From the NCBI RefSeq assembly GCF_000024185.1, contig NC_013790.1:1325501-1389500 (forward strand): a DNA stretch of 64,000 nt, read 5' to 3'. The position numbers and the translations under genes are program-made. Every line of letters begins with the position of its first letter. Position 1 is the first letter of the stretch. Below the pieces are notes generated by a model. That model searched no databases, was not told where the DNA came from, and was given only the letters and a program-made list of their open reading frames with translations. This DNA comes from Methanobrevibacter ruminantium M1. GTDB lineage: Archaea; Methanobacteriota; Methanobacteria; Methanobacteriales; Methanobacteriaceae. Shown here in pieces: positions 6,889 through 42,881 of the stretch.

Positions 6889-6926
6889 TTCAATATCAAG
6901 TCAATTTAACACTTTCATATCAATTT
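6889..6926 (-). repeat. 19-bp repeat array A (2 units)
   Basis: Read on the minus strand, two adjacent 19-bp units begin AAATTGA: AAATTGATATGAAAGTGTT and AAATTGACTTGATATTGAA. They belong to the same family as the arrays near 21.4, 30.4 and 42.8 kb; the join of the units matches array D over about 26 bp with two differences. They lie about 200 bp before cpgS. Confidence 0.7.
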
Positions 6927-6964
6927 TGATGGGAGTTAAATTGGATTTTATCAAAAAAAGCAAA

Positions 6965-7119
6965 ATAATTTATATTAAAAAGTTTAACTAATATATATAA
7001 TTTGAGGAAGTTTGTTTTAAAAGTTTAATTTTGTAGTTTTTAAACGATATTTTGAATATTACCATAAATCTATTGAGATAATGTGATTTAAAAATAGTTA
7101 ATTAATAAGGAGAATAATT
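6965..7119 (+). promoter_or_regulatory. Probable cpgS promoter and ribosome binding site
   Basis: AATTTATATTAAAA (about 6967) and AATATATATAATT (about 6989) resemble archaeal TATA boxes, and TAAGGAG ends 7 nt before the cpgS ATG. The remaining part of the 495-bp spacer after 6624 is T-rich with repeated 'TTCATGATTAATTCAT'-like stretches near 6745-6830. Confidence 0.4.
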
Positions 7120-8508
7120 ATGTCTACTCGTAAAGTTGTTTGTTTAGTGGATGGAGAGCATTACCTTCCGGTGACCCGTTCTGCTGTAAATTCCATTAAT
7201 AGCATTGACCATATTGAAGTTGTGGCTCTTGTTTTTATAGGCGGAACTGAAAAGCTTAAATTAGGTGATGAGGAAGAGTATAGCGAACTTTTAGACACTC
7301 CCGTTTACTTTGGAAAGGATAAAAACCAGATTCCATATAAATTGATTGAAGATGTCATCAAAAAGCATAATGCAAATATTGTGATGGACTTAAGCGATGA
7401 GCCTGTTCTTGATTATGACAAGCGCTTTAAGATAGCTTCTGTTGTACTGTCCTGTGGAGTAATTTACAAGGGGGCTGATTTTGAATTTGAGCCTTTGACT
7501 CAATATGAAATAATGAAAAAGCCTTCCCTAAAGATTTTAGGAACTGGAAAGCGCATAGGAAAGACTGCAGTTTCAGGCTATGCTGCTCGATTGATTGACA
7601 AGAATAACTATAATCCATGCATTGTTGCTATGGGTCGCGGAGGTCCTGAAGAACCTGAAGTAGTTCATGGAAATGAGATTGAAATTAATCCGGAGTATTT
7701 GCTTGAGCAATCCAATAAGGGAATTCATGCAGCAAGCGATCACTGGGAAGATGCCCTTATGAGCCGTGTATTGACAATCGGCTCCAGACGCTGTGGAGGC
7801 GGAATGGCCGGCGATGTCTTTGTCACAAATATGGATAAGGCAGCTAAAAAGGCAAATAAGCAGGATGCTAAATTTGTTATCTTTGAAGGAAGCGGTGCAG
7901 CCATTCCTCCGATTAAGACAGACAAATCCATTGTTCTGGTAGGTGCAAACCAGCCAATAGGAAATATTCTCGGATACTTTGGTCCTTATCGCATAATGTT
8001 AGGGGATTTGGTTATCCTGACAATGTGTGAGGAACCGATGGCAAGCAAGGAAAAGATAAAGGAAATCGAAGACTTCATCCATAAGATCAAACCTGATGTT
8101 GATGTGATATCTACAGTCTTTAGGCCTAAGCCATTGTCAGATATTAATGGCAAAAAAGTTTTATTTGTTACCACAGCTCCTGAAGCGGTTAGGGATGTTT
8201 TATCAAGCTATCTTGAAGAGACTTATTCCTGTGAGATAGTTGGATTAAGCTCTCATCTTTCAAACAGGCCTCTTCTTCAGGAGGATATTGAAAAATACAA
8301 GGATGATGTCGATTGCATAGTGACTGAGCTTAAGGCAGCTGCAGTTGATATTGTCACTAAGGAGGCAATAGAATCTGGAATAGAGCTTGTATACTGTGAT
8401 AATATTCCGGTTCCTATAAGCGATGACTATCCTGACCTTTCAGAGTCTATTCTAAAGGTGGTTGATGGGGCAATTGAAGAGTTCTCCTTTAATATGCTTT
8501 TAGATTAA
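7120..8508 (+). CDS. cpgS: Cyclic 2,3-diphosphoglycerate synthetase
   Basis: Makes cyclic 2,3-diphosphoglycerate from 2,3-diphosphoglycerate and ATP. In Methanobacteriales this compound is a major solute and phosphate reserve. The sequence resembles the Methanothermus enzyme along its full length: '[17 protein letters not shown]' at the N-terminus, a nucleotide-binding loop GTGKRIGKT at residues 141-149, '[13 protein letters not shown]', '[13 protein letters not shown]', '[11 protein letters not shown]' and 'VGANQP'. The length of 462 is typical. It is alone on its strand with its own promoter and a good GGAG site. Confidence 0.92.
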
Positions 8509-8570
8509 TTAACTCTTTAATTTCTATTAAAGATGTTTAAATGTTAATCATAACTTTTCTATTTCAATTA

Positions 8571-8686
8571 TTTGGTGAAATGGGGTCTAAGATTCTTAAT
8601 TATTTGGTGAAATGGGGTCTAAGATTCTTAATTATTTGGTGAAATGGGGTCTAAGATTCTTAATTATTTGGTGAAATGATGTCTCA
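8571..8686 (+). repeat. Four-copy 32-bp tandem repeat of a translation start region
   Basis: A 32-bp unit (TTTGGTGAAATGGGGTCTAA plus 12 more bases) is repeated three times exactly. A fourth, diverged copy is the actual ribosome site and start (GGTGAAATG) of the TPR gene at 8676. Each copy therefore carries its own GGTGA and ATG. Since 32 is not a multiple of 3, the copies read in different frames and give mini-ORFs of about 20, 20 and 11 codons; the last two end at or just before the real start. Confidence 0.9.
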
Positions 8687-9737
8687 AGATTCAAACAAAA
8701 ATGATATAAATTCATACGATTTTCCATCAAGGGTGGAAAAGGCTTTAAAATTGATTCATACAGATTCTTTCAAAGCATTGGATTATTTTAATGAAATTCT
8801 GGATGATTTTTTCAAGTTCACACCTGATGAAATCAAGGAAAATAACTTATCTTCCCTTATAATAAATTCATTGAATGGAAAGGGTTCCATTTTAAATGCA
8901 TTTGATAAAATCGATGAGGCTGAAGAATGTTTTGATATGGTTTTAAATGATTTTGACAGCCAAGATTTCACTTCCCTAATTAATAAGGCATTGATTTTAA
9001 GAAAAAAGGGACATTTGGAAGAATCTTTGGATTATTACGATGAGATAGCCAAATACTATCCTGATAAGAAAGAGCTTATTTTAGCTATGAAAAGTGAAGT
9101 TTATGGTGAATTGAAAATTAAGCTCTCTGATACCGATTTGGATGATTATAGCATTGAAGCAAAGGACTTAATTGGGAGGGGTCTTGCATCCCATGAGAAT
9201 AAGATTGTTTTAGAAGCCTTGGATTATTATCAAAAAGCGATTAAAGCAGATTCAAGCTGTAAATATTTGGTCTTAAGCCTTATGGATGATGTTAAAAGGG
9301 AATTTTTTAAGCTCTTTCTCTATGAGGATATAGACATTGAAAAGGACGAGATTTCAAAGAAAAAAGGAGCTGTTTTGCATTACCTTTTCATTCAAAACAA
9401 TCTATTCTATGCTTATATGCTAAATGAAGAGATCCTTGAAGAAAATAAGAATGACTTGTTTGCATTGAATGCAATGGGAATGATATTCTTCTATTTGGAT
9501 GACTGTGACTTGTCTATTAGGTATTTCGACAGATGTAACACTATTGATGAGAAATATCTTTACCCATATCTTAATAAGGCCATTGCATTGGCTAGGGCTA
9601 AAAGATTTGATGAAGCTAAAGAGTCCTTTGGAAAAATTAAGGGATTGCCTAATCTGATTCGGGATCCAAATGAGGAAGAGTTGGACATTTTTAAAAGAAC
9701 AATCATTTCAAACAGCATCTATTCCTTAGGATTTTAG
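8676..9737 (+). CDS. Tetratricopeptide-repeat protein
   Basis: A 353-residue protein of repeated helix pairs with TPR spacing: 'GKGSILNAFDKIDEAEECFDMVLNDF', 'NKALILRKKGHLEESLDYYDEIAKYYPD', 'ALDYYQKAIKAD', 'ALNAMGMIFFYLDDCDLSIRYFDRCN' and 'LNKAIALARAKRFDEAKESFGKI'. There is no signal peptide or membrane segment, so it is probably a cytoplasmic protein-binding scaffold. Two ATGs are adjacent (8676, 8679), and GGTGA lies directly before the first. The partner is unknown. Its start region is the template of the upstream tandem repeat. Confidence 0.85.
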   Translation: MMSQDSNKNDINSYDFPSRVEKALKLIHTDSFKALDYFNEILDDFFKFTPDEIKENNLSSLIINSLNGKGSILNAFDKIDEAEECFDMVLNDFDSQDFTSLINKALILRKKGHLEESLDYYDEIAKYYPDKKELILAMKSEVYGELKIKLSDTDLDDYSIEAKDLIGRGLASHENKIVLEALDYYQKAIKADSSCKYLVLSLMDDVKREFFKLFLYEDIDIEKDEISKKKGAVLHYLFIQNNLFYAYMLNEEILEENKNDLFALNAMGMIFFYLDDCDLSIRYFDRCNTIDEKYLYPYLNKAIALARAKRFDEAKESFGKIKGLPNLIRDPNEEELDIFKRTIISNSIYSLGF

Positions 9738-9765
9738 TTTAAATCATTAATTCTTTTTATATGTC

Positions 9766-10206
9766 CTATTCTTCTTTTAATATTTTTTCAACTATCAATG
9801 TTGCAGATTCTACGAATTTTGGACAAAATTCGATAAAAAGATTATTCTCTTTAGCATAATTAACTCCTTTTTCAGTTCTTATATCACACCCTAATAATTC
9901 ATTGCAAATATAAGAACCATTTGCTCTTTCAAATTCCTCTAAAAAGTCAGTGCACTTCTTATCAGATTTCAGTTTGCTATCTCTATCTCCAAGTTCGCTC
10001 TGACCATATTTTAAACCTAAAACCATCAATGCTCCACTACAAGCTCCGCAGACTTCGCCTTTACGCATACCGCTACCAAAACAAGCGGCTATTTTTAATG
10101 CTTGTTTCTCATCAAGGCCAAATTCTTTTGAAAAACTGCAAAAAACTGATTGGGCACAATTAAATTTAGCTTCAAATAATTCTAATGACTTTTCAACATG
10201 TGACAT
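9766..10206 (-). CDS. C_GCAxxG_C_C family redox-type protein
   Basis: A 146-residue protein with the cysteine pattern of the C_GCAxxG_C_C family: 'FNCAQSVFCSFSKEFG' (residue 15 on), 'AACFGSGMRKGEVCGACSGAL' and later cysteines in 'CTDFLEEF', 'ICNELLGCDIR' and 'FCPKFV'. Such proteins are thought to be redox-active or metal-binding; the exact role is unknown. GAGGGA lies before the ATG. Monocistronic, convergent with the TPR gene. Confidence 0.85.
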   Translation of the reverse strand: MSHVEKSLELFEAKFNCAQSVFCSFSKEFGLDEKQALKIAACFGSGMRKGEVCGACSGALMVLGLKYGQSELGDRDSKLKSDKKCTDFLEEFERANGSYICNELLGCDIRTEKGVNYAKENNLFIEFCPKFVESATLIVEKILKEE

Positions 10207-10652
10207 AAAAATCCCTCGAATTTTATTTTTTTAATTATTTATTTAGATTTTATATTATTTAATTTTTAATAAATCTTATTTTATCAGTTATTTTGTTAAA
10301 AATTAATATTTGCTTAAAATTAAGAATTTTGCTTAAATTTTTTCAATATTTGAGATTTTATTCAATAGATTTAAATATAGTATTAACTCATATTATTATT
10401 ATAATATAATATAAACTAAGATTTTTAATATTTGCTCAAAAATGGGTCAAATATCTTATTAAAATAATGAATTAAATTCCAGAAGATTTTTTCAATGAAA
10501 TTTATGGAATTAATGCTTGCAAATTTTAATATAGTAAAATCAAATGAAAAAATATTTAATTTATAACCATAAATTATTAAAATGATAAAAATATTTAATT
10601 TATAAATAAATTATTAAACTGATAAAAAATACAAATATCTAAAGAACTTTTA
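10207..10652. other. Divergent spacer between the redox protein and the NYN protein
   Basis: A very A/T-rich spacer of 446 bp. It holds two partly repeated stretches of AAATATTTAATTTATAA (about 10550 and 10585) and TATA-like runs near 10375-10410. No coding signal was seen on either strand. Confidence 0.5.
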
Positions 10653-10664
10653 ATGGGTGATAGT

Positions 10665-11732
10665 TTGAAAGTTATTATAGATGCAGCTAATGTGGCTCAT
10701 TATCAAAAAGGGGAAAATTCAAAGGCTAAATTAAAGAACATTACCTTGGCTGTTAAGGCATTGGAACAGGGGCATCATGATTTTTTAATTATAGCAGATG
10801 CATCATTGCGTCATAATATTGATGATAAGGACACTTTTGTAAGGCTTGTTGAAGATGGAATCATCGATGAGGTTCCTATCGGAAATGTGGCAGATCACTA
10901 TATCCTTGACTTGGCTTATGATGAAAATGCAAAGATTCTATCCAACGATAAGTTTAGGGACTTCATGTCTGAATTTCCAGATATCAACAGCATGAGGATT
11001 CCTTTTTCAATAAAGGACAATGAGTTAATATTAGGTAAGACAAAGAAACCTAAGAAGGTTAAAAATCTCTTGCAGAACATCTGTGATGAAATCTTAAATG
11101 AGCTTGAGCGCAAGCGTTGGGTTGTTTATAAGGGAAAGGAGACAACTAAGTTCACACCTTTGAATGTTGCAAAACAAGCCATTTTGATTTTAGACCAATC
11201 TGAAAGGGATGATATGTCCTCTAAAATCGAAGGAATATTTTCAAAGCTTCCTATGTTTGACAAGGTCATGGAAATGGTTGATGACGTAGAGACCTCTGTC
11301 CCTTATGTTATTTTTGTTCTTGTCCATCCTAAGGATTATAAGGCTGCAGTAAAGGATGCAGGTAATATTTCAGTCACTGTGGCAGATAGGTTAAGATTGG
11401 TTCATAAGCCTTTGATTGCAGTTAGAAATGACCTCTTTATTAAGCCAGGATATTTCGGATTGAATATTGTCCTTACAGATGAGGTGGAAGATATTCCTCC
11501 ATTCAATATTGAGATTCAGACAAACACCTATGATGAGGTATTTATCAAGAAGAATTCCAGAAATATAGCAAGTACAATTGCTGGCAGATTAGGTTCCTGG
11601 AAGTTTCCATTTGTTTCAGTTAAGCCTAATATGATTTTGGAAAAACCTGGTGAGTTTGAAATCTATTTAGAGAAGAATTCTAAAAAGAAAAAGAAAGATA
11701 AATCTAAAGATAAGGATAAGAAGAAAAAATAG
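10665..11732 (+). CDS. NYN-domain (Zc3h12a/PIN-like) ribonuclease-like protein
   Basis: The N-terminus 'KVIIDAANVAHYQKG' with later 'DFLIIADASLRHNID' and 'ADHYILDLAYDENAKILSNDKF' shows the acidic residues and order of a NYN/PIN-fold nuclease. Residues 130-330 form a separate domain of unknown type, and the tail is a run of Lys/Asp that may touch nucleic acid. I favour the TTG at 10665, giving MKVIIDAANV, because GGTGATA lies just before it; the ATG at 10653 overlaps that site. RNA cleavage is inferred from the fold and not proven. Confidence 0.7.
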   Translation: MKVIIDAANVAHYQKGENSKAKLKNITLAVKALEQGHHDFLIIADASLRHNIDDKDTFVRLVEDGIIDEVPIGNVADHYILDLAYDENAKILSNDKFRDFMSEFPDINSMRIPFSIKDNELILGKTKKPKKVKNLLQNICDEILNELERKRWVVYKGKETTKFTPLNVAKQAILILDQSERDDMSSKIEGIFSKLPMFDKVMEMVDDVETSVPYVIFVLVHPKDYKAAVKDAGNISVTVADRLRLVHKPLIAVRNDLFIKPGYFGLNIVLTDEVEDIPPFNIEIQTNTYDEVFIKKNSRNIASTIAGRLGSWKFPFVSVKPNMILEKPGEFEIYLEKNSKKKKKDKSKDKDKKKK

Positions 11733-11990
11733 TTCCTTATTGGGAAGATAGTTAGAAAAGAATTCTTTAAAAATATCTTTTTAGGAAATAAATATTTTAA
11801 TTATTTTTTAATTAATCTATTTATTCTATATTTTATTAATTTTATTTTAAATCATATTTATAAACAAGGAATGTTAATTTATATCATTTAAATAAGACAT
11901 TTAAATAAGAAAAATTTGTTTAAATCATTTAATTTATCAGAAATTAATTTATATCTAATCATTTACTTATAACTGGAAGGAGGTTAGAAA

Positions 11991-13193
11991 ATGGCTAATA
12001 ATAGTGTATTAAGACGTATTGTTTCTCTAATTACCAAGCATAACATACTTAGTATAGGAACTAAGTATTTTCCTACTACAGAGCTTGAAACAGAGTATGT
12101 AGATATGTTCAATTATACTCAAACAATGCTTATGGAAATCGATAAAGCGAATATTACTACAGAAAGTATCTTCACTAATCTAGTTAGAGATGTTGGCCGT
12201 GAAAATATTCCAGAAAATCATAGCTTTTATGAATTGCTTCCCGCTCAAAACAAGATAGATGAATATGCCTTAGTAAGCAAGATCATCATGGGAAGTGACA
12301 GATACATGTATGTTGAGCTTTCAGAGCCTTCCTATATCATAGATTACTTCACAGACATTATCTTAAGGGAAAATGGGGAGATTATTGAAAGAAGCGAAAC
12401 AGAGATTGTTTCAAGATTGATGTCTAAAAACGATGCAATAAGAATAGCCATCAAGCTTGTAGGGATTGGATTGGATAATAACATTCGTGTAAGGGCAGCA
12501 GCAGGAATGACTGGCGCTGCAGCCATTGAAAGATCAATCAAGTTCAATAAGGAAGTTGGAGATGTTCCAGGTGTGGCATTCACCAAATTAGGAGGGGAAT
12601 ATGCCCTTGTTTTAGACACTCCATTTAAATTGGGACAATCTGAACATGCAGAATATCAGCATTATCTATTCATTGACATAGTGGATTCCACTAATTTCAT
12701 ATCAAAGCATGGTAAAAACAAGCTTGTAGAGCTTATGACCAGCGTCAAGGAGTTTATGGAAAACTGTGAAGGTCATATTGAAGGCTACCGTGAAGGTGGA
12801 GATGACCTTATTGCTCGTTTCCCAAGTAAGGGAGTGGCAATTCGTGCAGGCCTTGACTGTGCATGGTTCATTCTAAATAATGGCGCAAAGGTCAAGATAG
12901 GTATTGGAAGAAGCAGAAGAGAGGCAGGAGAACGTGCAAACATTGCAGAGGGTATTAAAGGATTTGGGGCATTGACTCTAATCGTATTTGATTTGGCAAA
13001 CGGATTGTATGCATATTATGTTCCATCAGACTTTTCAAGAACCTTGTGTGAGCTTTTCACTACCAAGAAAGGCAAGTTGGTAACTGCATTCCTGTTGGTA
13101 TTTATTTTATGCTATTTATTGGCTGTTTTAGGCTTTGGCCTTTATGGAATTTTGGTATTTATTATTGTAGTGGCTTATTATACTTTAAAGTAG
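11991..13193 (+). CDS. Class III cyclase-fold protein with C-terminal membrane hairpin
   Basis: Residues about 225-350 look like a class III nucleotidyl cyclase domain: 'LFIDIVDSTNF' carries the metal-binding Asp and the D-x-x-S/T pattern, and 'GGDDLIARFPS' matches the G-D-(D/E) turn before a late 'KVKIGIGRSRREAGERANIAEG' strand-helix. Residues 1-220 form an unassigned, Gly/Ala-containing domain, and about 360-398 form two membrane segments. It may make or bind a nucleotide signal, but the substrate-specifying residues cannot be judged by eye. GGAAGGAGG lies before the ATG. Confidence 0.55.
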   Translation: MANNSVLRRIVSLITKHNILSIGTKYFPTTELETEYVDMFNYTQTMLMEIDKANITTESIFTNLVRDVGRENIPENHSFYELLPAQNKIDEYALVSKIIMGSDRYMYVELSEPSYIIDYFTDIILRENGEIIERSETEIVSRLMSKNDAIRIAIKLVGIGLDNNIRVRAAAGMTGAAAIERSIKFNKEVGDVPGVAFTKLGGEYALVLDTPFKLGQSEHAEYQHYLFIDIVDSTNFISKHGKNKLVELMTSVKEFMENCEGHIEGYREGGDDLIARFPSKGVAIRAGLDCAWFILNNGAKVKIGIGRSRREAGERANIAEGIKGFGALTLIVFDLANGLYAYYVPSDFSRTLCELFTTKKGKLVTAFLLVFILCYLLAVLGFGLYGILVFIIVVAYYTLK

Positions 13194-13374
13194 TTTGATT
13201 TTTTTTAATAAATGATTTTAGATTATGCTTAATTTAAAATGGGGTTTTATTTAATTTAGAATGGCTTTTTAGTTTAATAAGATAAATTTTAGGGTTTATT
13301 TAATTTAGAATAGACTTTAGATAGATTTAGTGATTAATTTTATAATTAATTTAAGAAATTGGATTGGTGAATTT

Positions 13375-13680
13375 ATGGCAAATGAAGGTGGAGGACATTT
13401 AAAGACTATTTTGATGATTATAATCTTAATAGCTTTTATTTGTGGTCTTGCATTAGGAGTTTCAGTTATAATGGGAGGGGATGATAACTCTCAAACTGAA
13501 TCTGAAGGTGTGCACTATGTTAATGTGACAAAAAACATTACTGAATATAATGAAAGCGGGAATCTTATTGAAACCGAAGATGGCACACATATAGAATTTT
13601 CTTCTTACAGCGACAATGTAACTGAAGGAGAAAACGTTACAGCCTATAATTCTTCAACAGATGCAGGGAATTTGTTTTAA
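13375..13680 (+). CDS. Small membrane-anchored protein, unknown
   Basis: A 101-residue protein with one membrane segment (about residues 11-33, 'LMIIILIAFICGLALG') and an acidic, Asn/Thr-rich outer part with N-glycosylation-like sites (NVT, NIT, NES). It resembles secreted tails common in this genus, with no known family. The start is the ATG at 13375 with GGTGA 6 nt upstream; the upstream in-frame ATG at 13330 lacks a site. It follows the cyclase-fold gene by 180 bp. Confidence 0.55.
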   Translation: MANEGGGHLKTILMIIILIAFICGLALGVSVIMGGDDNSQTESEGVHYVNVTKNITEYNESGNLIETEDGTHIEFSSYSDNVTEGENVTAYNSSTDAGNLF

Positions 13681-13696
13681 ATCCTTGCGTTTATTT

Positions 13697-13823
13697 TATT
13701 TTAAATTTTAAACCTATTTAATATATTAAATGATTTGTTTTAAATTTTAAATCTATTTAATTTCTTAAATATCATTTATTTTAAATTTTAAATCTATTTT
13801 ATTTCTTAAATATCATTTGTTTT
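13697..13823. repeat. Three degenerate ~40-bp tandem repeats
   Basis: The string TTTTAAATTTTAAA(T/C)CTATTT begins three units about 40 bp apart (near 13699, 13738 and 13779), each ending around TTAAATATCATTT. It lies in the spacer before argJ. Confidence 0.65.
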
Positions 13824-13973
13824 AATTTTATTATTCATTCATTTGATTATTTATTTTTAATATATTTTTTAATTTGATTTTTAAGACTTTTTACTATTTT
13901 AAAAAATAATTTTTTAGCTCCTAGAGGGAAGATATCATGGTCTAATATTAAAGGTTATTTGAAGGGAGGAAAT

Positions 13974-20981: not shown

Positions 20982-21928
20982 CTTTTCACTCCTTGTTTTT
21001 TTAACTCAAATCCATTCAATAGGGTCCTTAGAAAATAATGCTTTGATAGGATTTTTTTAATTTAAGTCTTGATTTAAGCCCCTTTAGAATTAAATCTTTT
21101 AGTCCAATCCTTTTTCGTGATTGTTCTTTTTAAGAATCAGATTTTTTTTATTGATCCTTTCGTGAATTTATTCTCTTAAAGAACCAAACTCTTAAGATTT
21201 AAGTTTCAAAAAGAATTTAAACTTTTAAGAATTAAATCTATTATTTTCTAATGAATAAAAATTCTTCAGGTCAAATATGATTATTTTATCAATAATCAAA
21301 TCTTATTTTAGGATTTTTTCAAATCAATTTTTTTTTAAGAAATTTTTCCTTTGAAATGAACCCAAGTCAATTTTTAATTTTTTCATTTTCATATTTAAAT
21401 TTAAGCATTTAGAGGCTTTATTTTAACAAGTCCATACAACTTTCACACTTTCGCACAATTTTACGAGATGACATCAATTTTTACTTCATTTAAGAATTAA
21501 TAAATAGTTTAAATATGTAAATTTTGGCCTATTTTTTAGGGTGATTTTTATGTATAGTTTATTATACATTAATTGTTCTTATTTTATAAAATGGTTTGTT
21601 TGATTTGAAACTAAAATTTTTAATTTTTTTAATTCCTGAGTGAAAAATTTGTTCCTATAATTTAAAACTAGTATTCTTAAGGAGTTTTGTTTTTCATAAT
21701 TGTAAAGATTTCATTATTTTTGCCTTGATTTTAAGTCATATATTTATACTATTATTAACAAATTTAGATAGTGATATTTGAATTGTGTAAAAATAGATAA
21801 ATATTTCCTATCATTGATTTATGATATTTTTAAAACGGTTAATGAATCATACTTTAAATCGTTTAATTCCAATTTAAATTATTCTAATTAATTAAAAACA
21901 ATCAAAAAAATTATAATTATGTGATAAA
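20982..21928. other. 947-bp divergent spacer before argB
   Basis: Contains repeated TTAAGAATTAAAT-like stretches (21060-21240), the 19-bp repeat array B, a small inverted repeat TGTATA-GTTTAT-TATACA (about 21549) and TATA-like DNA near 21740-21800. No protein-coding signal was seen on either strand. Confidence 0.5.
21424..21480 (-). repeat. 19-bp repeat array B (3 units)
   Basis: Read on the minus strand, three units are spaced exactly 19 bp apart: AAATTGATGTCATCTCGTA, AAATTGTGCGAAAGTGTGA and a third beginning AAAGTTGTATGG. The first unit matches one in array C (30.5 kb) with a single difference, and the AAAGTTGTAT variant also occurs in array D. Confidence 0.75.
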
Positions 21929-29684: not shown

Positions 29685-30120
29685 TTAAAAGGGTTTCAAA
29701 ATAAAATATTTGATGATAAAAAAAAAGGGTTTAATCATTATGTTAATTTTTATAAAAAAAGAGATTTAAAATAATTTTAAAACTTAAAGTAAGGATTCAA
29801 AAAGAACTCTTAACTTTAAATTTTCCAACATCCTAGGAGCTAATGAAATAACTCTAAGTAATGTTATATTTTTAGACTATATAATATTAACTGATTTAAT
29901 AAATAATTTTTCATTTATGAAAGGGGTTCAAAGATTATTATTTGGCTTTAAAAAGAGTTTAATACATTTTTATTAAAAAAGAGATTTAAAATAAGTTTAA
30001 AACTTAAAGTAAGGATTCAAAATGAATCCTTGGCTTTAAATTTTCTATCATCCTAGGAGTTAATGAAATAACTCTATGTAATATTATATGTTTAAAGTAT
30101 ATAATATTAACTGTTGAAGA
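29685..30120. repeat. Direct duplication of a ~220-bp hairpin-bearing element
   Basis: Two tandem copies (about 29685-29900 and 29915-30120, 220 bp apart) share most bases. Each has an AAAG...CTTT stem: copy 2 has the perfect inner stem AAGGATTCA-AAA-TGAATCCTT, and copy 1 has a G-T/A-C variant of it. A CATCCTAGGAG box and GAG(T/C)TA-ATGAAA-TAACTC follow, and both copies end in ATATAATATTAACTG. No frame is open. The retention of stems suggests an RNA or DNA-hairpin function. Confidence 0.7.
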
Positions 30121-30183
30121 AAAAACTACCCTATAAAAAATATAAAAACAATTATTTTTTTTAGTTCAACAACTGAATACATT

Positions 30184-30303
30184 TTATTTCATTAATAAAA
30201 TGAAGATTTTGAGGATTTCTAAAGAGTATTTTAGAATCTTTTCAGAGTTGTCTTTCAAGAATTCTAATGAATCTTTTAGAAGATCATTGTTTATATTTTT
30301 CAT
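30184..30303 (-). CDS. Possible 39-residue small protein
   Basis: ATG at 30303, preceded by GGAGG at exactly 6 nt, opens a frame that reads MKNINNDLLKDSLEFLKDNS and then EKILKYSLEILKIFILLMK. The first half is a charged amphipathic helix and the end is hydrophobic, so it may attach to a membrane. A/T-rich promoter-like DNA lies upstream and the duplicated hairpin element lies just downstream. No family is recognised. Small hydrophobic peptides beside structured RNA occur in type I toxin-antitoxin loci, but nothing here proves that. Confidence 0.5.
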   Translation of the reverse strand: MKNINNDLLKDSLEFLKDNSEKILKYSLEILKIFILLMK

Positions 30304-30428
30304 TTTTTTCCTCCATTTTCGGATGATAGATATTTTTTTGTAGCAGGAAAAAACTTCAATTAATAATTTATTTTTATCATTAATAAATATAATGGTTTTT
30401 TTGAGATAAATATTGATTTAAAAGTGTT

Positions 30429-30561
30429 AAATTGATTTAATAATGTTAAATTGATATCATTTCGTAAAATTGACTTCATTTGGTAAATTTTACTTGAAAG
30501 TGTAAAATTGATGTCATATCGTAAAATTGGTATTAAGATATGAAATTGATTTTAGGGTGAA
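30429..30561 (+). repeat. 19-bp repeat array C (7 units)
   Basis: AAATTGA-type units start at 30429, 30448, 30467, 30485, 30505, 30524 and 30543, i.e. 17-20 bp apart with 19 as the rule. Typical units are AAATTGATATCATTTCGTA and AAATTGATGTCATATCGTA. There are no spacers, so this is a tandem array and not CRISPR. It lies in the divergent spacer between the 39-residue ORF and the winged-helix gene. Confidence 0.85.
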
Positions 30562-34960: not shown

Positions 34961-36100
34961 ATGAAAGTTTTATTTATCGGATCAAGATTATATGATGACT
35001 TGGCTTATCATGTGGATGAGCTGGGCATAGAAAGCATAATAACAGAATCAAATGAAGAGGCTCCTCATTTGGACCTTGCAAGCAAATACTATATAGTCCC
35101 AAGAGGAATGGATAAGCCAATGGAAGTGGCTATTGAAGAGAAGGTCGATGCAATAATACCTCTTATTGGCATAGACCCTCCATTAAAGGACTTGGCTATT
35201 ATGAAGGAAAAAATAGAAAAGGAAAATAATATTCCAGTGATTTCATCTAATTTCAATGCTGTGGACATCGCTTCCGATAAGATAAAGACCAAGGAGTTCT
35301 TTAAGTCAATCGGATTGAATGTGCCAGAGGCAAAGGTTCTAAATAAGGATGACTTCTCCAATGAGGGGGAGTTCTTGGAAAAATTAGGATTCCAATTCCC
35401 AATAGTCCTAAAGCAGGGAGAAGGACAAGGCGGAAAGGACATTTGCATAACAAGCCAGTTTGAAGATGTTTTACAATACTTTGAAAGCTTCAATCAGGCT
35501 TTGGTGGAAAACTTCATTGAAGGGGCTGAGGTCTCCATTGAAGTAATCGGATGGAATGGTGAATATTTGCCTTTGGTTCCGGTATATAAGGGAGATACTA
35601 GTTTAGAAGGCATACATCCGATAAAGAGGTTAAGATATGGTCCTTGTGACTTTGAGGCAATTGACAATGAAGAGTTCAGGCAATTGGCTAAAAAGATAGC
35701 AGTCAATTTAGGCTCTGAAGGAACAATCGATATGGATTTAATCTATTCAAGGGAAGAGAACAAGGTCTATGCAATTGAAATAAACACACGTCCAAGCGGC
35801 ACAAGGTATTTATCCTATGCAACTACTGGACTTAGCCCATTAGGTCTTCTTGTTGACATTGCAGCTGGAAACTTTGATGTTAAAGATTTGGAAAATAAAA
35901 TAAAGCATTATTATTCATTGGAAATACCTATAGGTGATTATGAAGGTCCTGCACCTAATGAACCTGTTAAGGAGTATGTAAATGGCAATTTCATTGTTCA
36001 CGGCCCAAAAGGGTATCAAAGAATTACTATAAGAGGAAATACTCGTGAAGAAACCTATGAAATTGCTAAAGAGTTAACTGGCAATGATTACAGGTCTTAA
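34961..36100 (+). CDS. ATP-grasp ligase (CarB-like), likely pseudomurein synthesis
   Basis: A carbamoyl-phosphate-synthase-type ATP-grasp protein: N-terminal 'KVLFIGSRLYDDLAYH', nucleotide loop 'FPIVLKQGEGQGGKDI', 'LVENFIEGAEVSIEVIGWNG', 'GTIDMDLIYS' and the metal-binding 'AIEINTRPSGTRYLSYATTG'. It forms an amide or acyl-phosphate bond. Just downstream are an MraY homologue and a Mur ligase; in Methanobacteriales an ATP-grasp gene grouped with these is taken as a pseudomurein gene, so I infer that role. I start at the ATG at 34961 because the 13 residues upstream do not fit the family. Confidence 0.75.
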   Translation: MKVLFIGSRLYDDLAYHVDELGIESIITESNEEAPHLDLASKYYIVPRGMDKPMEVAIEEKVDAIIPLIGIDPPLKDLAIMKEKIEKENNIPVISSNFNAVDIASDKIKTKEFFKSIGLNVPEAKVLNKDDFSNEGEFLEKLGFQFPIVLKQGEGQGGKDICITSQFEDVLQYFESFNQALVENFIEGAEVSIEVIGWNGEYLPLVPVYKGDTSLEGIHPIKRLRYGPCDFEAIDNEEFRQLAKKIAVNLGSEGTIDMDLIYSREENKVYAIEINTRPSGTRYLSYATTGLSPLGLLVDIAAGNFDVKDLENKIKHYYSLEIPIGDYEGPAPNEPVKEYVNGNFIVHGPKGYQRITIRGNTREETYEIAKELTGNDYRS

Positions 36101-36576
36101 TCATTGCTTCTTTTATATTTTTTAATCTTTTCATTCATTTCTTTCATGATTTGTTCCATTTTTTTTTAATGAATAATTTAAATTTTCATATTTCTCTTTT
36201 TTTCACTAAATTTTTCATTTTATTTCTTAATAAACTAAAAAAATTTTTATTCTTCTTTTTTTTAGAAAATAAGCAAAAATTCTATCTATTTTTATCATGA
36301 TATTATAATGTTAATATCATTTTTTCCATGATAATATCATTGTAATGTCAAATTATAAATAATATAAAAGTTATATCTTATAATAATATAAGAATATATA
36401 ATCGATATTTAATAATTAATTATTCTTATGAAAAGTCCTTAAAAAACAATTAAAGGATGAATTATTTGATTTTTTTAAAATAATCTTTTTAAAATTACTT
36501 AATTTTGTTGTCGATTTATTGAAGTGGATTATTCATTTAAATGGATTATTTGCTCATTACTCTAAAGTGTGATAAA
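36101..36576. promoter_or_regulatory. Spacer with hairpin and ATATCAT repeats before mraY-like gene
   Basis: ATGATATTA-TAATGT-TAATATCAT (36297-36320) is a perfect 9-bp stem followed by six T, and ATGATAATATCAT follows at 36329-36341. This gives a terminator-like hairpin or three half-sites for a regulator. TATA-like DNA (about 36355-36400) follows. The remainder is T-rich. Confidence 0.5.
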
Positions 36577-37650
36577 ATGGATTTGAATTATATAATTGTA
36601 TTGTTTGTTCTAACATTTCTTGCTACCGTAGCCTTCACTTACTTTGTAAGACATACTCTACGTGATGCAGATGTTTCAGATAGCCCTATTGTCAGTGAAC
36701 ATAGACATAAAGCAGGAACTCCCACCATGGGAGGAATAGCTTTCCTATTTGCCATTCTATTCATAGTGTCTATCTATTACAGAAATACAAATATTCTCAT
36801 AGCCTCATTTATCATGCTCACAGGAGGTGTAATGGGTCTTCTTGATGATCTATTAGGTCTTAAGATAAAGGAATATCAAAAGGTCGTAAAGAATGTAAGC
36901 GATTCAGTTGTTCCTATAGGATTATTGGACCTTGGCCCTGGAGAAGAGGCAAGGGTAACCACCGACAAGGCTAAAAAACAGGTATATGGATATGTTGATG
37001 AAGGAAAATTGGAAATTGTTGCTGAAATTCCAATCAAGTATGAGCCAAGCGAAAAGACCAAGATCATCGTTCAGCTATTGCCTGGACTGTTTTTGGCATT
37101 GACTGGGGTTGTAACAACCCTTGGGGGATTCACTTTAGGCATTTTGGCTTATCCTATTTGCATAATCGCTATTCTTGGTTCAATCAATTCAATAAATCTC
37201 ATTGATGGAATGGATGGATTGGCTGCCGGCATCGTTGCAATTGCATCATTCTCATGCTGCATTTATGCTTATATCTGTGGAAATATGGATATGATTCCTG
37301 CATTTGCAATTTTAACTGGAATATGTCTTGGATTTTTGGTCTTCAACAGATACCCTGCAAGCATATTCATGGGAGACACAGGCTCCTTTGTATTAGGTAC
37401 AGGATATGCAGTTGCTGTCATCTTAGGGGACATTCCTTACTTTGGAGTATTGGCTTTGGCTGTTCCGATTGTATCAGTAATAATAAGCCTGATGCATAGG
37501 GCACATATAATAAATCTCCCTGTAGAGCCTTTGCATCACACCTTGAACTATAAGGGAATCTCTGAAGTCAAGATAGTCTTAAGCTATTGGCTATTGACCG
37601 TCCTTGTCTGTGCAATCGGCATACTTGCAAAGCTTTATATCTTTGCATAA
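36577..37650 (+). CDS. MraY-like phospho-sugar transferase (glycosyltransferase family 4)
   Basis: A polytopic membrane enzyme that attaches an activated amino-sugar phosphate to a polyprenyl phosphate. Motifs: 'HRHKAGTPTMGGIAFL', 'GVMGLLDDLLGL', 'NSINLIDGMDGLAAG', 'FNRYPASIFMGDTGSF' and 'PVEPLHHTLNYKGISE', all typical of MraY/WecA. About 55 residues (roughly 105-160) form an extra soluble loop with 'KKQVYGYVDEGKLEIVAEIP'. I start at the ATG at 36577 with GTGTGATA upstream, since the in-frame ATG at 36541 has none. Its place between ATP-grasp and Mur ligase genes fits the pseudomurein lipid step. Confidence 0.85.
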   Translation: MDLNYIIVLFVLTFLATVAFTYFVRHTLRDADVSDSPIVSEHRHKAGTPTMGGIAFLFAILFIVSIYYRNTNILIASFIMLTGGVMGLLDDLLGLKIKEYQKVVKNVSDSVVPIGLLDLGPGEEARVTTDKAKKQVYGYVDEGKLEIVAEIPIKYEPSEKTKIIVQLLPGLFLALTGVVTTLGGFTLGILAYPICIIAILGSINSINLIDGMDGLAAGIVAIASFSCCIYAYICGNMDMIPAFAILTGICLGFLVFNRYPASIFMGDTGSFVLGTGYAVAVILGDIPYFGVLALAVPIVSVIISLMHRAHIINLPVEPLHHTLNYKGISEVKIVLSYWLLTVLVCAIGILAKLYIFA

Positions 37651-37651
37651 T

Positions 37652-37810
37652 TCTTTAATTTCTTTATTTTAAAAATTTAAATTAAGTTTTTTCTTTAATT
37701 TATTTATATTAAAAAATTTACTTAGTTTTTTTTAATTTATTTATTTTAAAAAATTAATTTAGTTTTATTTCTTTAATTTGTTTATTTTAAAAATTTAAAT
37801 AATTTTTATT
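37652..37810. repeat. Degenerate ~45-bp tandem repeats
   Basis: Four imperfect copies of TTAATTTNTTTATTTTAAAAA lie head to tail between the MraY-like gene and the Mur ligase gene. They are low complexity, and I see no further signal. Confidence 0.5.
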
Positions 37811-37911
37811 TATTTGTCGTTATTTTTCATTTTCATTAATTTAAGAACTTTATATTTAAAAATTAATTTATTTCTATCTATTTTCTATCAAAATCAGTTT
37901 CCGTGATTAAT

Positions 37912-39590
37912 ATGTCAAAAACATACTTTTTAAATGAATTAGCAGATTCAATATCCTCTCAAAAGACCTTTTCAATCGCTCAACTTGCAGATGCCATTGG
38001 AGGCAAGATTTATGGAGCAGATGACTACAAGTCTCCAAATGGATTTACAGGCATCTTTGAAACCTTAAACGAAGCTGTAGAAGGAGATATTGTAATTAGG
38101 CATTGGATAAACGGAAAAGGTGTTGAAATAGCTAATGATAAAAACGTTGCATGCATTATAACCCTAACTCCAAAGGAAGATGCCTTGGAAATGGCTTCAA
38201 AGCTCGCCTTTCCAGTTATTGTAGTGGATAGGATTGAATTTGCAAATGCATTTGCATTGAAATGGACAATTGATAACCTTTCCCCTAATACTCAAAGGGT
38301 AGTTATAAGTGGGACAAATGGAAAATCAACCAGTTCCCATTTGATTTATCACATTTTAAACCATTGCGGATATAATGTATTTACAAATACTGATGCAAAA
38401 TCAGAATTCAATACACTAATCGACCCAATGGTTGCAAAGCTAATCTCAGAGCAGGTGATATCAAAGCAGGACTTTGATGTTCGCAAGTTGGACTCTGTAG
38501 CAGACCTAAAGAACCTGGATAGCGAAGGAAAGCCAATAAATAAAGGCGCCTTTGACTATATTGTTGTTGAAGTCTCAGAGGTTCAGGGCTGGGGAAGCGA
38601 CCTTATGAAAGATCATGCCCAAATAATGTCTTCAGCAATCAATCCGGATGTAGGGGTTGTCACAAATGTTGCAATGGACCATATCGGCCTTGTAAACAAT
38701 ATAGAAGAGGTGTTCCATGAAACTTCAGGGCTTGTAAAGGCTATAAACAAAGGAGGAGTGGTCTTAAACTACGACGATGAGAATGTCCTGGCAATGAAGG
38801 ATCTTGCAAATGATGGAGTAGACATATTCTTCACTTCAATGGAAAAGGATTCAATCCTAAATAATGATTATGACAATGATAAGAAGGTTTATTTTGATAG
38901 AAAAAGCAATGCAATAGTTTATGATAATAAAAATATCCTTAGATATGATGAGTTGCCCTTTACAGGAGAGCATTTTATCAGAAATATTCTATCTGCAATT
39001 TCAGCTTGTATATCTCTTGAGATTCCAATTGAAGACATCTGCGAAGGGGTAAAAACATATAATCCTTTAAGCAGAAGGTTTACACGTCTTTATGATGAGC
39101 CAATTGTTATTGATGACTTTGCACATAACCCCGACGGAATAAAAAATACCGTAAGGGCAGCATATGACTTGGCAGAGCAATTTGACAAGGGAGATTTATA
39201 CATTGCATGTGCAATCAGAGGCTCTAGGGGTGAAACCTTAAATGGCCTTAATTCAGAGGCATTGGCTTTAGTCATTAAGGAATTGCGCCATAGAAATGAT
39301 GATGATATAGAAAAAGACGAAAATGTCAAGAAAAGGGAAATATACCTAATCCTTTCTTCAAGCTGTGACTTGGTAGACCATCTAAACTATGTTGAAGACT
39401 TTGAGAGGGGATATATTTCCTTCTCTAATTTGGATAAGGAGCACATAAAATACATTCATTTCAATAAGCTCTACGGCGCTTTAGGATATATTATGAAAAA
39501 ATGCATATGGAAGATGATGTTGTATTGCTGATTGGAGCACAGGGAATGGACCCTGCAGAAGATGTATTAAAGGATATTTTAGGTTATTAA
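37912..39590 (+). CDS. Mur ligase family (pseudomurein peptide ligase), frameshifted at the end
   Basis: An ATP-dependent amide ligase with the Mur layout: an N-terminal domain, P-loop 'VISGTNGKSTSSH' (about residues 134-140), 'VVEVSEVQGWG', 'NVAMDHIGLVNN', 'FTGEHFIRNILSAIS', 'NPLSRRFTRLYDEPIVIDDFAHNPDGI' and 'YIACAIRGSRGETLNGL'. The frame ends early with a foreign tail. One extra A in the six-A run at 39496-39501 gives 'KKMHMEDDVVLLIGAQGMDP' and a natural end, so the full gene runs to 39590. ATG at 37912 is preceded by CCGTGATT. It should add an amino acid to a UDP-linked pseudomurein peptide; which residue is unknown. Confidence 0.8.
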
Positions 39591-39652
39591 AAAGTATTAT
39601 AGAGTTTAAAGTTAAATTTTAATCTTCTTTCATTTAAAAAAGAGTTGATTCT

Positions 39653-41506
39653 ATGGGTGAGTTTGTATTTAGTTTTTTAGAAGATCAATTTAGAGACATC
39701 TATCTTGACTGTGCAAGGATGGATAAGAATCTCATTGAAGGAGATGGTGTTGAATCAATTCTTATTGCAGGAAGAATCGCTGAAAAGATAACAAAAGCCA
39801 TCTTTGTCTTTGAAGGCATAAAAGATAATGAAGATAATCAATATTTGAGGATAGAAAAGCTTTCCAATGCAAATATTCTTCCAAACAACATTAAAAATGA
39901 CCTCTCCCAAATTAGAATACTAAGAAACAATGTCTACCACAATACCTTAAACAGTGACGGAAGCGGCGGATTTGCTTCATACAATGCTCCAAAATATGTT
40001 CAAAGCGGAGGATTGAGAGACTATAAGACAGGCTTTAATGAAATCAAGGAATATTCTAAAATATCTAAACAAAATTCTAACTCTAATTCTAACTCTAGTT
40101 CAAATTCAAGCCCTAATAACGAGTTCGGCAGTGAATTGACTGCAGCTCGTGAAGCCCATAAGCTTGTATTTAATGTCTGTGTCTGGTTTTATGTAAACTA
40201 CTCTGGCGATAAGGACTTCATCAGACCAAAATATAAGCTAAGCAGAAGAACCCAAGATGCTGACTTCCTAATCAGACTAAAGTCAGCAATAAACGATGGA
40301 AACGACTTTATTAAATTGCGCCAAAACAATCCAAACAATGAGATCATTCAGATACTCAATGAGATTTACGTCAAAAAGGCTCCTCAAGAGCCAAAAGAGG
40401 AGCAGGTCTATGGCATAAACAATAAGGATATTAAAATCAGACAGCCTGATGTTCCTTATTCAAAGTGTTTAGGCATCTCTTATGATGATGAACTATTCAT
40501 GTGGCATGCAGAGCATGGGGGAAAGGACTTAGGTCTTTTCGAGTCTTCCAAGGAAGCTTATGAGGCAAGGGAGATTTATATAAATTCCATCCCAATGCCA
40601 AGAAAGGTAAATGGAGCATATTCAAAGGCAAGAGGCATTTCATTCAGCAGAATTCAAAAGCTATGGTCTGCAAGCGTAAAGGGACAGATTATATCATATC
40701 ATGGAAGCGAAGCTGAAGCAATCATGGCTCGAAAGAAATACTTAAAGTCTCATAACCTAGTTGACATTAAGGTAAAAGACGGATATAAGACAATCACCCT
40801 TGAAGAGAAGGCTAAATTGGAAGAGAAGATTAGACAAAAGAAGGAAAGTTCAAAATCTGATATTAAGACAATCCCTTCAAATTCAAATACAAAGGACGAG
40901 ATGGAAAAGGAGAATATTCAAAAGATAATGGATGGCGTAAAGAAGCTTAAGGATGATTTGAATGAATCTAGTGCTTCTACTTATATTAAATCCAGTTCAT
41001 TAAGCTCACAGTCCAGTTCTTCTGATTCTGTTTCAAGTTATTCCGGTTCTAAATCCAGTTCTTTAGGTTCCACTTCTTCTAGTTCTAAGTCTGGTTCTTT
41101 AAACTCTAAATCCACTTCAAATGAAAATTCCTCTTTTTATGACATTCATAACATAGGTTCAGGAGATAAAACTAAAAAGAAAGTTAAAATTGTAAATGGC
41201 TCAAAAGTCCAAGCAAGTCAAACAACTAAAAAAGTAAAGGTTTCAGCTGGAAATAGAGTTTCTAAAAAACATAAATCCAGTTCTAAGAATTCAACTGTTT
41301 CTAATAATGCAAATAGTTCTAAAAAGTCTAAATCTGTTGCCATTAATAAGAAAAAATCCTCTAAATATGAAGGTGTGTTCTATGAGGATGGATTGTTCAT
41401 GTGGAGTGCAGAGGTGGACGGCAAGCATTTAGGTCTATTCTCCTCTGAAAAGGAAGCTTATGAAAAAAGGGAAGAGTATATTAAGAATAAGTCAAATAAT
41501 AACTAA
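39653..41506 (+). CDS. DUF4145-like protein with three AP2-like modules
   Basis: A 617-residue protein. Residues 1-180 look like a DUF4145/HEPN-type helical domain ('EKITKAIFVFEGI', 'LSQIRILRNNVYHNTL', 'AREAHKLVFNVCVWFYVNY'). Three copies of an AP2-like module follow at about 269-312, 323-366 and 572-612, each 'G(I/V)-x-(Y/F)-...-W-x-A-...-G-...-A' with 'EAYE-x-REEYI'. The part between modules 2 and 3 is a Ser/Lys-rich, poorly ordered stretch. AP2-like modules usually bind DNA. It follows the Mur ligase gene by only 60 bp, which may be chance. Function unknown. Confidence 0.55.
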   Translation: MGEFVFSFLEDQFRDIYLDCARMDKNLIEGDGVESILIAGRIAEKITKAIFVFEGIKDNEDNQYLRIEKLSNANILPNNIKNDLSQIRILRNNVYHNTLNSDGSGGFASYNAPKYVQSGGLRDYKTGFNEIKEYSKISKQNSNSNSNSSSNSSPNNEFGSELTAAREAHKLVFNVCVWFYVNYSGDKDFIRPKYKLSRRTQDADFLIRLKSAINDGNDFIKLRQNNPNNEIIQILNEIYVKKAPQEPKEEQVYGINNKDIKIRQPDVPYSKCLGISYDDELFMWHAEHGGKDLGLFESSKEAYEAREIYINSIPMPRKVNGAYSKARGISFSRIQKLWSASVKGQIISYHGSEAEAIMARKKYLKSHNLVDIKVKDGYKTITLEEKAKLEEKIRQKKESSKSDIKTIPSNSNTKDEMEKENIQKIMDGVKKLKDDLNESSASTYIKSSSLSSQSSSSDSVSSYSGSKSSSLGSTSSSSKSGSLNSKSTSNENSSFYDIHNIGSGDKTKKKVKIVNGSKVQASQTTKKVKVSAGNRVSKKHKSSSKNSTVSNNANSSKKSKSVAINKKKSSKYEGVFYEDGLFMWSAEVDGKHLGLFSSEKEAYEKREEYIKNKSNNN

Positions 41507-41576
41507 TTTTTAACTTTATTATAAATATCTAAAAATATTCAAAAAATTAATACTTTTTTAAACTGCAGTGATTGAA

Positions 41577-42173
41577 ATGATGTCTAAATTTAAATACTGT
41601 CCAATGTGCGCAGAGCCAAGAGCAGATAATTCAAAGTACTGCTCCAAATGCAATTTTGAATTTTTAACTGGAAAATATGTAAAAGTCCAAGAGGAAGAGA
41701 TAAAAATCACTGAAAAGGTCTCCCAAGAGGAGTTTGTAGAATCTAATCAGCTAATACAAGATACAAGTCTTAAAATCAATGTATTGATAAGCAGGTATTT
41801 GAATTATTCACTAAGCAATAAGTTTAATGAAAACTTACCATTAAGTATAATAAGGGAATACATATCCAGCTGTTTAAACAGTAAAGTCCCATCTGACTTT
41901 GATGACAATTATCTCCAATCCTTAGATGCTCTTTTAAATGATGAGGGCTATAAAAATTCTATTAATCTTTTTCTTCAATGGATCGATGAGAACAGATCCC
42001 ATCTGCCAGGGCTTGTATTGAATCAATACATGATTCCACATCAGAACAATGTCAATAGGATTGAAGAGATCCTTGATTTGGAGTTAGAGAAAAATGAGGA
42101 TAATGATTTGTTCTTTGATTTATTGAATAAGTTTTTAATCAGTGAAAAAGAGTTTATAGAACGTTTAATTTAG
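41577..42173 (+). CDS. Zinc-ribbon protein, unknown
   Basis: Starts MMSKFKYCPMCAEPRADNSK and has a second pair C-S-K-C, giving a C-x2-C...C-x2-C zinc ribbon in the first 35 residues. About 165 acidic, helical residues with no family signal follow. GTGATT lies before the ATG at 41577; the GTG at 41568 is in frame but acts as part of the ribosome site. It follows the AP2-like gene by 70 bp and is probably co-transcribed. Confidence 0.6.
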   Translation: MMSKFKYCPMCAEPRADNSKYCSKCNFEFLTGKYVKVQEEEIKITEKVSQEEFVESNQLIQDTSLKINVLISRYLNYSLSNKFNENLPLSIIREYISSCLNSKVPSDFDDNYLQSLDALLNDEGYKNSINLFLQWIDENRSHLPGLVLNQYMIPHQNNVNRIEEILDLELEKNEDNDLFFDLLNKFLISEKEFIERLI

Positions 42174-42251
42174 ATTTAATTTGAAAAAAAGAACAATATT
42201 AACTTTATCTTAAATTTTAAAAAAAGAATAAATAGCTAAATGATTAGCTAT

Positions 42252-42318
42252 TATTTTAATTTATTTATTTTAATTTATTTATTTTAATTTATTTATTTTA
42301 ATTTATTTATTTTAATTT
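42252..42318. repeat. Tandem 14-bp repeats
   Basis: TTTAATTTATTTAT is repeated about five times exactly in the spacer downstream of the zinc-ribbon and tautomerase genes. This is simple-sequence DNA, prone to slippage. Confidence 0.8.
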
Positions 42319-42334
42319 AATTTTTTGTTTTTAT

Positions 42335-42523
42335 TTAATCTCTATCTATCAATAATTTTCCACCTGCACCTATGTCCTCTCTTTCAAAGGCTTCTATAAG
42401 CACAGTAATTGTTTCAATAGGTAAATTGTAGGATTCTGCTACAATTTCACTAACTTTCTTTACCATTTCTCTTTTTGTCTCTACACTTATATTTGGATTT
42501 CCGGAAATTCTTACAACAGGCAT
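42335..42523 (-). CDS. 4-oxalocrotonate tautomerase family protein
   Basis: A 62-residue protein starting M-P-V-V-R-I-S-G, so Pro1 is exposed after Met removal as the catalytic base, with 'KREMVKKVSEIVAES' and 'ITVLIEAFEREDIGAGGKL' as in the tautomerase superfamily. It probably isomerises a 2-hydroxy-dienoate or acts on a related compound; the natural substrate is unknown. AAAGGAGATG lies before the ATG. Confidence 0.85.
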   Translation of the reverse strand: MPVVRISGNPNISVETKREMVKKVSEIVAESYNLPIETITVLIEAFEREDIGAGGKLLIDRD

Positions 42524-42578
42524 TTTAACATCTCCTTTATATATTTATTTTTACCATCATAAATCTATTTTTCCTTTT

Positions 42579-42881
42579 TCATATCAATTTTGATTTGATT
42601 TAGTTAAAAAATATTGCCTTTTTCCAAATTTCTTTTTATTTTTTTAAAAATTTCATTTTGATGATTTGTTTAAAAAAATTTGCTCTTTATTTTAAACTTT
42701 TTATAGAAACTATTTTTTTATAAAAATCATTCATTTTTTTTTAAGTCAAAATTGATGTGAAAGTGTGAAATTGATTTCATATGGTGAAATTGTTTTCATT
42801 TTAATAAATTGATTTCACCTAATAAAAGTTGTATGAGATTGTTAAATTGATTTGAGAGTGTAAAAGTTGTATAAAGTAATA
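42579..42881 (+). repeat. 19-bp repeat array D (7 units) and one outlying unit
   Basis: Units start at 42749, 42768, 42787, 42806, 42825, 42844 and 42863, exactly 19 bp apart. Five begin AAATTG (for example AAATTGATTTCATATGGTG) and two begin AAAGTTGTAT. One further unit lies on the opposite strand at 42579-42597. The array occupies the divergent spacer between the tautomerase and the Rpn-type gene, ending about 50 bp before the latter's start. Confidence 0.85.

Follow-up and report, generated by a model that had tools for sequence, protein, structure and literature searches.

Tandem 19-bp repeat arrays upstream of predicted promoters in Methanobrevibacter ruminantium M1, probable activating sites of a dispersed DNA-uptake and nuclease regulon

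Multiple short sites upstream of a promoter have been described in methanogens. In Methanococcus maripaludis, EarA has four 6-bp sites immediately upstream of the B recognition element (BRE) in the fla (archaellum) promoter, and Ptr2 of Methanocaldococcus jannaschii is an activator which acts at multiple sites upstream of the BRE and recruits TBP (PMC5512572). Natural transformation of M. maripaludis requires type IV-like pili, an OB-fold protein with one transmembrane helix (MMJJ_13020) and a TctA-like protein (MMJJ_13030), a TctA homologue is also essential in Methanoculleus, and identified ComEC homologues are missing from competent archaea (PMC10133366). In Methanobrevibacter ruminantium, 83 satellites have been reported (PMC6749651). 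Here we analysed tandem arrays of a degenerate 19-bp repeat in M. ruminantium M1, starting from four arrays (A to D) in a 64,000-bp stretch, hereafter the window (positions 1,325,501-1,389,500 of the single 2,937,203-bp contig), and extending to about 40 arrays in the genome. The arrays are most likely upstream regulatory sites rather than a recently spreading repeat, and we consider it probable, judging from sequence, that they serve as tandem upstream activating sites of a DNA-uptake and nuclease regulon.

All four arrays were found where an earlier note on this DNA had placed them in the window, and the 19-bp periodicity claimed there was confirmed, with nine same-strand AAATTG pairs exactly 19 bp apart, where 300 local dinucleotide shuffles had 0.18 on average and never more than 3. 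In shuffles of the window, no AAATTG pair distance occurred more than three times in any of the 300. The sequence matches which had been described between the loci were also reproduced: the A and D junctions agree over 26 bp with 2 differences, arrays B and C have a near-identical unit (26-mers with 1 difference), and a second unit type, AAAGTTGTAT, is common to arrays B and D. The genome scan which the earlier note had proposed as a check gave 183 occurrences of AAATTGN{12,14}AAATTG in M1 versus 42 for the reversed pattern, and 131 occurrences of the stricter dimer AAATTGNNNTNANNNNGTNAAATTG versus 1 for the reversed control. A 38-bp dimer model made from sequence alone had 138 matches, which were grouped into about 39 clusters and resolved by the unit matrix into 40 arrays. 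A scan of viral contigs gave 40 single matches, which were read as probable chance.

The approximately 40 intergenic arrays hold 313 units, with up to 17 units per array. Successive unit steps (about 250) were 19 bp in 216 cases, 22 bp in 11 and 41 bp in 9. The conserved block GTNAAATTGATNTNA spans unit positions 17-19 and 1-12, and the four positions separating successive blocks are variable. Units 57 bp apart were more alike (similarity 0.69) than neighbouring units (0.57), indicating that the arrays grew by duplication of three-unit blocks. As had been noted, the units abut without spacers and hold no open frame; overlap of any array with a called gene was at most 15 bp. A CRISPR array was ruled out by the abutting units without unique spacers, and a coding repeat was ruled out because arrays and genes do not overlap.

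A start codon faces most arrays, typically about 40-130 bp away, with a TATA-like box between the array edge and the start codon at a median of 24 bp from the edge (quartiles 22-36); for most predicted boxes, the array edge is some 20-45 bp to the 5' side. These boxes are predictions by a fixed TATA matrix; free expectation-maximisation drifted into A/T-rich sequence and was discarded. The repeats stand directly 5' of the predicted BRE/TATA region, in the manner of a multi-site upstream activating sequence. Modulo 19, the spacing between the proximal AATT core and the TATA box was non-uniform (Rayleigh p 7.6e-6, 33 promoters), also with one promoter per homologous group (p 1.8e-4, 25 promoters) and with strong boxes only (p 9e-4 to 0.014). 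Since the boxes are predicted, a few are ambiguous and the p values are weaker with strong boxes only, this phase is taken as supporting and not decisive. In the same stretches, 31 of 36 genes with a listed array have at least two strong units within 300 bp upstream and none of the 249 other genes does, a contrast that is partly circular because the matrix was trained on some of these arrays and used to define them.

The strict dimer was present in 9 of 18 other genomes of the genus, at no more than 10 places each (control 0). Three perfect consecutive units were searched for in 84,980 prokaryote species genomes, and the 16 stretches found all belonged to Methanobrevibacter. Relatives had been named in the earlier note as a second check, and the arrays do recur at orthologous promoters: by comparison of array-flank proteins, about 15 of the 33 array loci compared in relatives coincide with M1 array positions. 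An array occupies the orthologous spacer in three other species each for the DUF192 locus, the pilin-like locus L067 and the helicase locus L066, in two for the locus of an Rpn-like gene (L090), and in one each for the TadC (L071), TctA (L069) and MoaC (L086 and L091) loci, making eight M1 array loci with a counterpart at the orthologous promoter of one to three further species. When six orthologous promoters were aligned, the proximal units and the TATA region were kept, for example at the TctA, DUF192, MoaC, helicase and pilin-like loci, and many distal units were found in M1 only. As a phylogenetic footprint, the kept proximal units argue for function and against a recent, random spread. 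Two array loci of relatives, L138 and L149, seemingly represent one locus in two species, with 2 units in one of them and 6 in the other, which hints at rapid change of unit number.

The 57-bp higher-order duplication and the variable unit number would also be expected of neutral minisatellites arising and expanding in A/T-rich intergenic DNA, and M. ruminantium is among the most satellite-rich archaea (PMC6749651). However, a single motif occupies about 40 separate places and recurs at the same promoters across species, and such an origin is extremely improbable.

Genes behind the arrays were identified by Pfam searches together with reading of the proteins, and searches for T2SSE, T2SSF and class-III signals were made over the whole genome independently of the arrays. 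The single strong T2SSE match of the genome is inside the L069 unit, where a TctA gene (E 1.4e-62) is followed by T2SSE and then by the second T2SSF. Both strong T2SSF matches of the genome stand behind arrays, the other being at L071 together with a class-III pilin. Further arrays lead a prepilin peptidase A24 and a pilin (L081), pilins (L076a) and proteins that are pilin-like by eye (L067 and L093). Class-III signals gave plausible loci at 875, 1255 and 1640 kb, each of them behind an array. At 1078 kb, a pilin pair follows a short weak array with 22-bp spacing, which was overlooked by the first array model. Array-led type IV pilus genes, the first part of the gene set of natural transformation, therefore comprise one T2SSE, two T2SSF and four class-III loci. 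The second part of that set was found among the array neighbours, as L068, about 77 kb from the array-led TctA-like gene in M1, encodes an OB-fold protein (E 1.8e-8) whose N-terminal hydrophobic helix was recognised by eye. The position of both TctA-like and OB-fold genes behind arrays is the strongest hint at what the regulon may do. Other array-led genes encode a DinG/XPD-like helicase (L066), a Cas4/PDDEXK_1 protein (L088), DUF3800, a PrmA-like methylase, MoaC, DUF192 and TPR proteins. A regulator gene with ArsR-type helix-turn-helix and V4R parts (L066:3940-4734) adjoins the helicase array, likewise in two relatives, and is a candidate regulator. The promoters of L078 (a 143-aa gene) and of the TctA unit at L069 have TTACTTATCATACTAAG in common beyond the array.

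The earlier note had offered a DNA-binding or nucleoid protein as the reason for the arrays. The more general part of this proposal fits, since the arrays are outside genes, end 5' of the predicted promoter, show the TATA phase and have conserved proximal units, which would agree with binding of a protein. An architectural or nucleoid protein, which would insulate or bend A/T-rich promoters without gene-specific regulation, is consistent with A/T-rich direct repeats that are orientation independent and widespread in spacers. However, arrays occupy just about 40 of the spacers of the genome, none of the 249 neighbouring genes carries one, and the gene set is strongly non-random; we regard this explanation as highly improbable.

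A paralogue family without Pfam match, which includes the gene behind array D, is also associated with the arrays: of the nine full-length members that M1 has, eight adjoin arrays, a fraction which may be inflated because the family profile was built from array neighbours. The sole full-length member without a recognised array (L103, G000:C1:1169564-1170427) is the most divergent. Related genes adjoin arrays in two relatives (G013 and G018) and, by eye, in other Methanobrevibacter. D53 and E67 are invariant in 19 sequences of the family, with an E-F/H-Q/H-S motif, and the gene behind array D has a PD-(D/E)XK core with D...ExQ. The structure model had a mean predicted local distance difference test score of 84.7, and its top fold matches were McrC, EndoMS/NucS, R.BspD6I and Cas4-like nucleases, with E-values above 0.001. 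The best score against the curated Rpn model TIGR01784 was 23.3 bits and did not pass the cut-off of 52.1, for which reason these proteins are named Rpn-like and are not filed as Rpn. Three open reading frames (ORFs) duplicate only the C-terminal part of a neighbouring Rpn-like nuclease (L076:9620-9913 minus, L092:3636-3851 minus and L090:6244-6765).

The frequent association of the arrays with Rpn-like genes could suggest a mobile repeat spreading between promoters, which the earlier note had also considered. The REP sequences of bacteria are dispersed intergenic palindromic repeats beside genes of a nuclease family (RAYT), and the arrays might be mobilised likewise, the Rpn-like nuclease ('putative transposase') taking the part that RAYT plays for REP, with promoters as permissive landing sites. 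This would fit the adjoining of 8 of 9 Rpn-like genes, the occurrence of arrays in both orientations, the duplication of array-plus-flank modules of about 450 bp at several loci, and the strong expansion in one species. However, orthologous spacers are occupied in several species with their proximal units conserved, about 15 of 33 array loci of relatives are at M1 positions where mobility would have scattered them, the TATA phase is preferred, no terminal structure is present, and growth is explained by local duplication. Between species, the orthologous occupancy and the lack of empty-site/filled-site pairs expected of a non-mobile repeat are already largely seen. With positions common to several species, spreading is not supported as the main explanation and is very unlikely.

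Small ORFs with good Shine-Dalgarno-like sequences also face arrays, and their peptide families span 25-39 aa. One family faces arrays at C, L071 and L075 (39 aa) and at L073a/b (25 aa), and a 33-aa hydrophobic family faces arrays at L061, L072 and L083. Homologous stretches of about 450 bp adjoin the arrays at the left flanks of L061, L072 and L083, and at window 29983-30418, L071, L075 and L073; they carry the unannotated 33-aa hydrophobic or 39/25-aa ORFs, and some array-promoter-small-ORF modules look duplicated. It is possible from their sequences that the small peptides are membrane-active or type I toxin-like.

The nucleases and small peptides are the basis of another explanation, in which the arrays are repressor sites or mark a defence or stress regulon, and a regulator would keep in check, until the need arises, toxic nucleases (Rpn), small membrane peptides and surface structures that are costly to make. 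In bacteria, Rpn proteins are toxic and act against phages (PMC10327210), several arrays are faced by small hydrophobic ORFs, and arrays in other Methanobrevibacter adjoin Rpn-like, Mrr, Panacea and DUF4258 genes. However, repressors mostly sit on or downstream of the promoter (PMC5512572), whereas the array edge is on the usual activator side of most predicted TATA boxes, and defence alone hardly accounts for a set of pilus, TctA and OB-fold genes. Repression or defence is thus an unlikely explanation, to which we still give some weight.

From these observations, we infer that a single DNA-binding protein with sequence specificity, or a small family of such proteins, would recognise a site of about 15 bp (GTNAAATTGATNTNA) every 19 bp, bind cooperatively along the array as a multimer directly 5' of the BRE/TATA region, and help TBP and TFB to load. 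The arrangement fits an activator on a 19-bp lattice upstream of the BRE, where EarA and Ptr2 act with fewer sites (PMC5512572). The regulator MsvR, considered for the TTCGTA-like end of some units, was set aside since most units are without that end. The dispersed regulon sharing the element would comprise type IV pilus, membrane OB-fold, TctA-like and helicase genes, nucleases (eight Rpn-like and one Cas4-like) and small peptides, and DNA uptake and processing is its most likely function. The earlier interpretation of the arrays is therefore supported in part, and the gene set behind them lay beyond it. As for the more specific proposal of a dispersed competence regulon of rumen Methanobrevibacter, switched on together by one regulator assembling on 19-bp-spaced arrays upstream of TATA, we hold the chances to be about even. 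In such a regulon, the type IV pilus would act with a TctA-like channel, an OB-fold DNA receptor, the helicase, the Cas4-like and Rpn-like nucleases and the small membrane peptides.

Several points weigh against the activator and DNA-uptake explanation. The orientation of the units relative to the gene is mixed, and the TATA boxes are predicted from sequence. The putative orthology of the M1 OB-fold and TctA proteins to the Methanococcus proteins is judged from family and architecture, and TctA, OB-fold and prepilin peptidase genes were counted among array neighbours. ComEC (PF03772) was searched for in the M1 genome and was absent, as it is from competent archaea (PMC10133366). About one third of the arrays face genes without an obvious link to DNA uptake (MoaC, DUF192, the argB region, RraA-like, adhesins), and short arrays in other Methanobrevibacter also face toxin, restriction and Bro-type genes. 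Given these array neighbours and the defence- and toxin-type neighbours in other species, a regulon broader than DNA uptake is possible.

In the window, array A (6889..6926, minus) has two 19-bp units, AAATTGATATGAAAGTGTT and AAATTGACTTGATATTGAA. A candidate TATA box predicted by eye, TTTATATT (6969..6976, plus), is 3' of it towards a gene at 7120..8508 (plus, 462 aa), which faces the array at 193 bp from its edge. A Pfam search of this protein gave no match; we take it to be cyclic 2,3-diphosphoglycerate synthetase-like. Array B (21424..21480, minus) has units at 21480 and 21461 and a AAAGTTGTAT unit at 21443. It adjoins a candidate TATA box read from the sequence, TTTAAATA (21508..21515, plus), a 17-aa ORF with GGGTGAT that starts at 21550, and an argB-like gene (start about 21929) with an amino acid kinase family match. 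Array C (30410..30561, plus) has 8 units, and Tandem Repeats Finder independently gave a 19-bp period at 30412-30533. Its candidate TATA box, TTTATTAA in minus-strand reading (30380..30387, minus), is 22 bp from the array edge, and a 39-aa ORF (30184..30303, minus; GGAGG; protein MKNINNDLLKDSLEFLKDNSEKILKYSLEILKIFILLMK) faces the array. Array D (42749..42881, plus) has seven 19-bp units, those at 42825 and 42863 being of the AAAGTTGTAT type. A candidate TATA box TTTAAATA (42890..42897, plus) is directly 3' of it, followed by the Rpn-like PD-(D/E)XK nuclease gene (42935..43771, plus, 278 aa), and its divergent neighbour is a 62-aa ORF (42335..42523, minus), by eye 4-oxalocrotonate tautomerase-like.

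Two descriptions of these loci had to be corrected. Exact 19-bp steps, claimed for A, B and D, hold for A and D, whereas B has one 18-bp step at an AAAGTTG unit; the spacing of 17-20 bp given for C was wrong, all its steps being 19. Placement between divergent starts, claimed for three of the four loci, holds for B and D and for C only when the 39-aa ORF is counted, and A is in tandem between two plus-strand ORFs. Beside array C, a 148-bp direct repeat, 90% identical, was present at window 29746-29893 and 29966-30113, and each copy corresponds to the small-ORF module seen at other array loci. Unrelated tandem repeats with 32-bp, 57-bp and 45-bp units were found in the window at 8566-8692, 48151-48321 and 5654-5764, respectively.

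Natural transformation in archaea is barely understood. The literature searched contained no report of it in Methanobrevibacter, and the main text of the M1 genome paper is silent on pili and on competence. If the competence proposal is true, rumen Methanobrevibacter would be naturally transformable under an inducing condition. The arrays would then point to candidate uptake genes, some of them of unknown function, could serve as a bait for the regulator, and would open a route to genetic tools in a major rumen methanogen that is relevant to livestock methane. The arrays also link the Rpn-like nucleases, about which little is understood, to DNA uptake or defence.

Like REP with RAYT, the M1 arrays are dispersed intergenic repeats adjoining nuclease-family genes; they differ in positions that are conserved between species, in the tandem 19-bp lattice, and in having no palindromic REP structure. 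With prokaryotic satellites they share a tandem, non-coding and scattered nature, but the long-repeat satellites of M. ruminantium are mutually unrelated (PMC6749651), whereas the arrays are a single motif family fixed to promoters. The ORFs which repeat the C-terminus beside three Rpn-like members resemble the RpnS antitoxins of E. coli (PMC10327210). Among regulators, the likeness to EarA lies in several short direct sites 5' of BRE/TATA at type-IV-filament genes of a methanogen (PMC5512572). EarA, however, serves one operon, whereas the M1 arrays have a different motif on a strict 19-bp lattice, which reaches 17 units and is spread over about 40 promoters, those of pilus and probable DNA-uptake genes among them. 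Ptr2 differs in that it is described for single targets, without genome-wide 19-bp arrays (PMC5512572). The genes behind the arrays resemble the transformation set of M. maripaludis in type IV-like pili, an OB-fold protein with one transmembrane helix, a TctA-like protein and no ComEC (PMC10133366). In M1, these genes lie scattered over the genome and have a promoter element in common, and the set extends further to a helicase, Cas4-like and Rpn-like nucleases, and small peptides.

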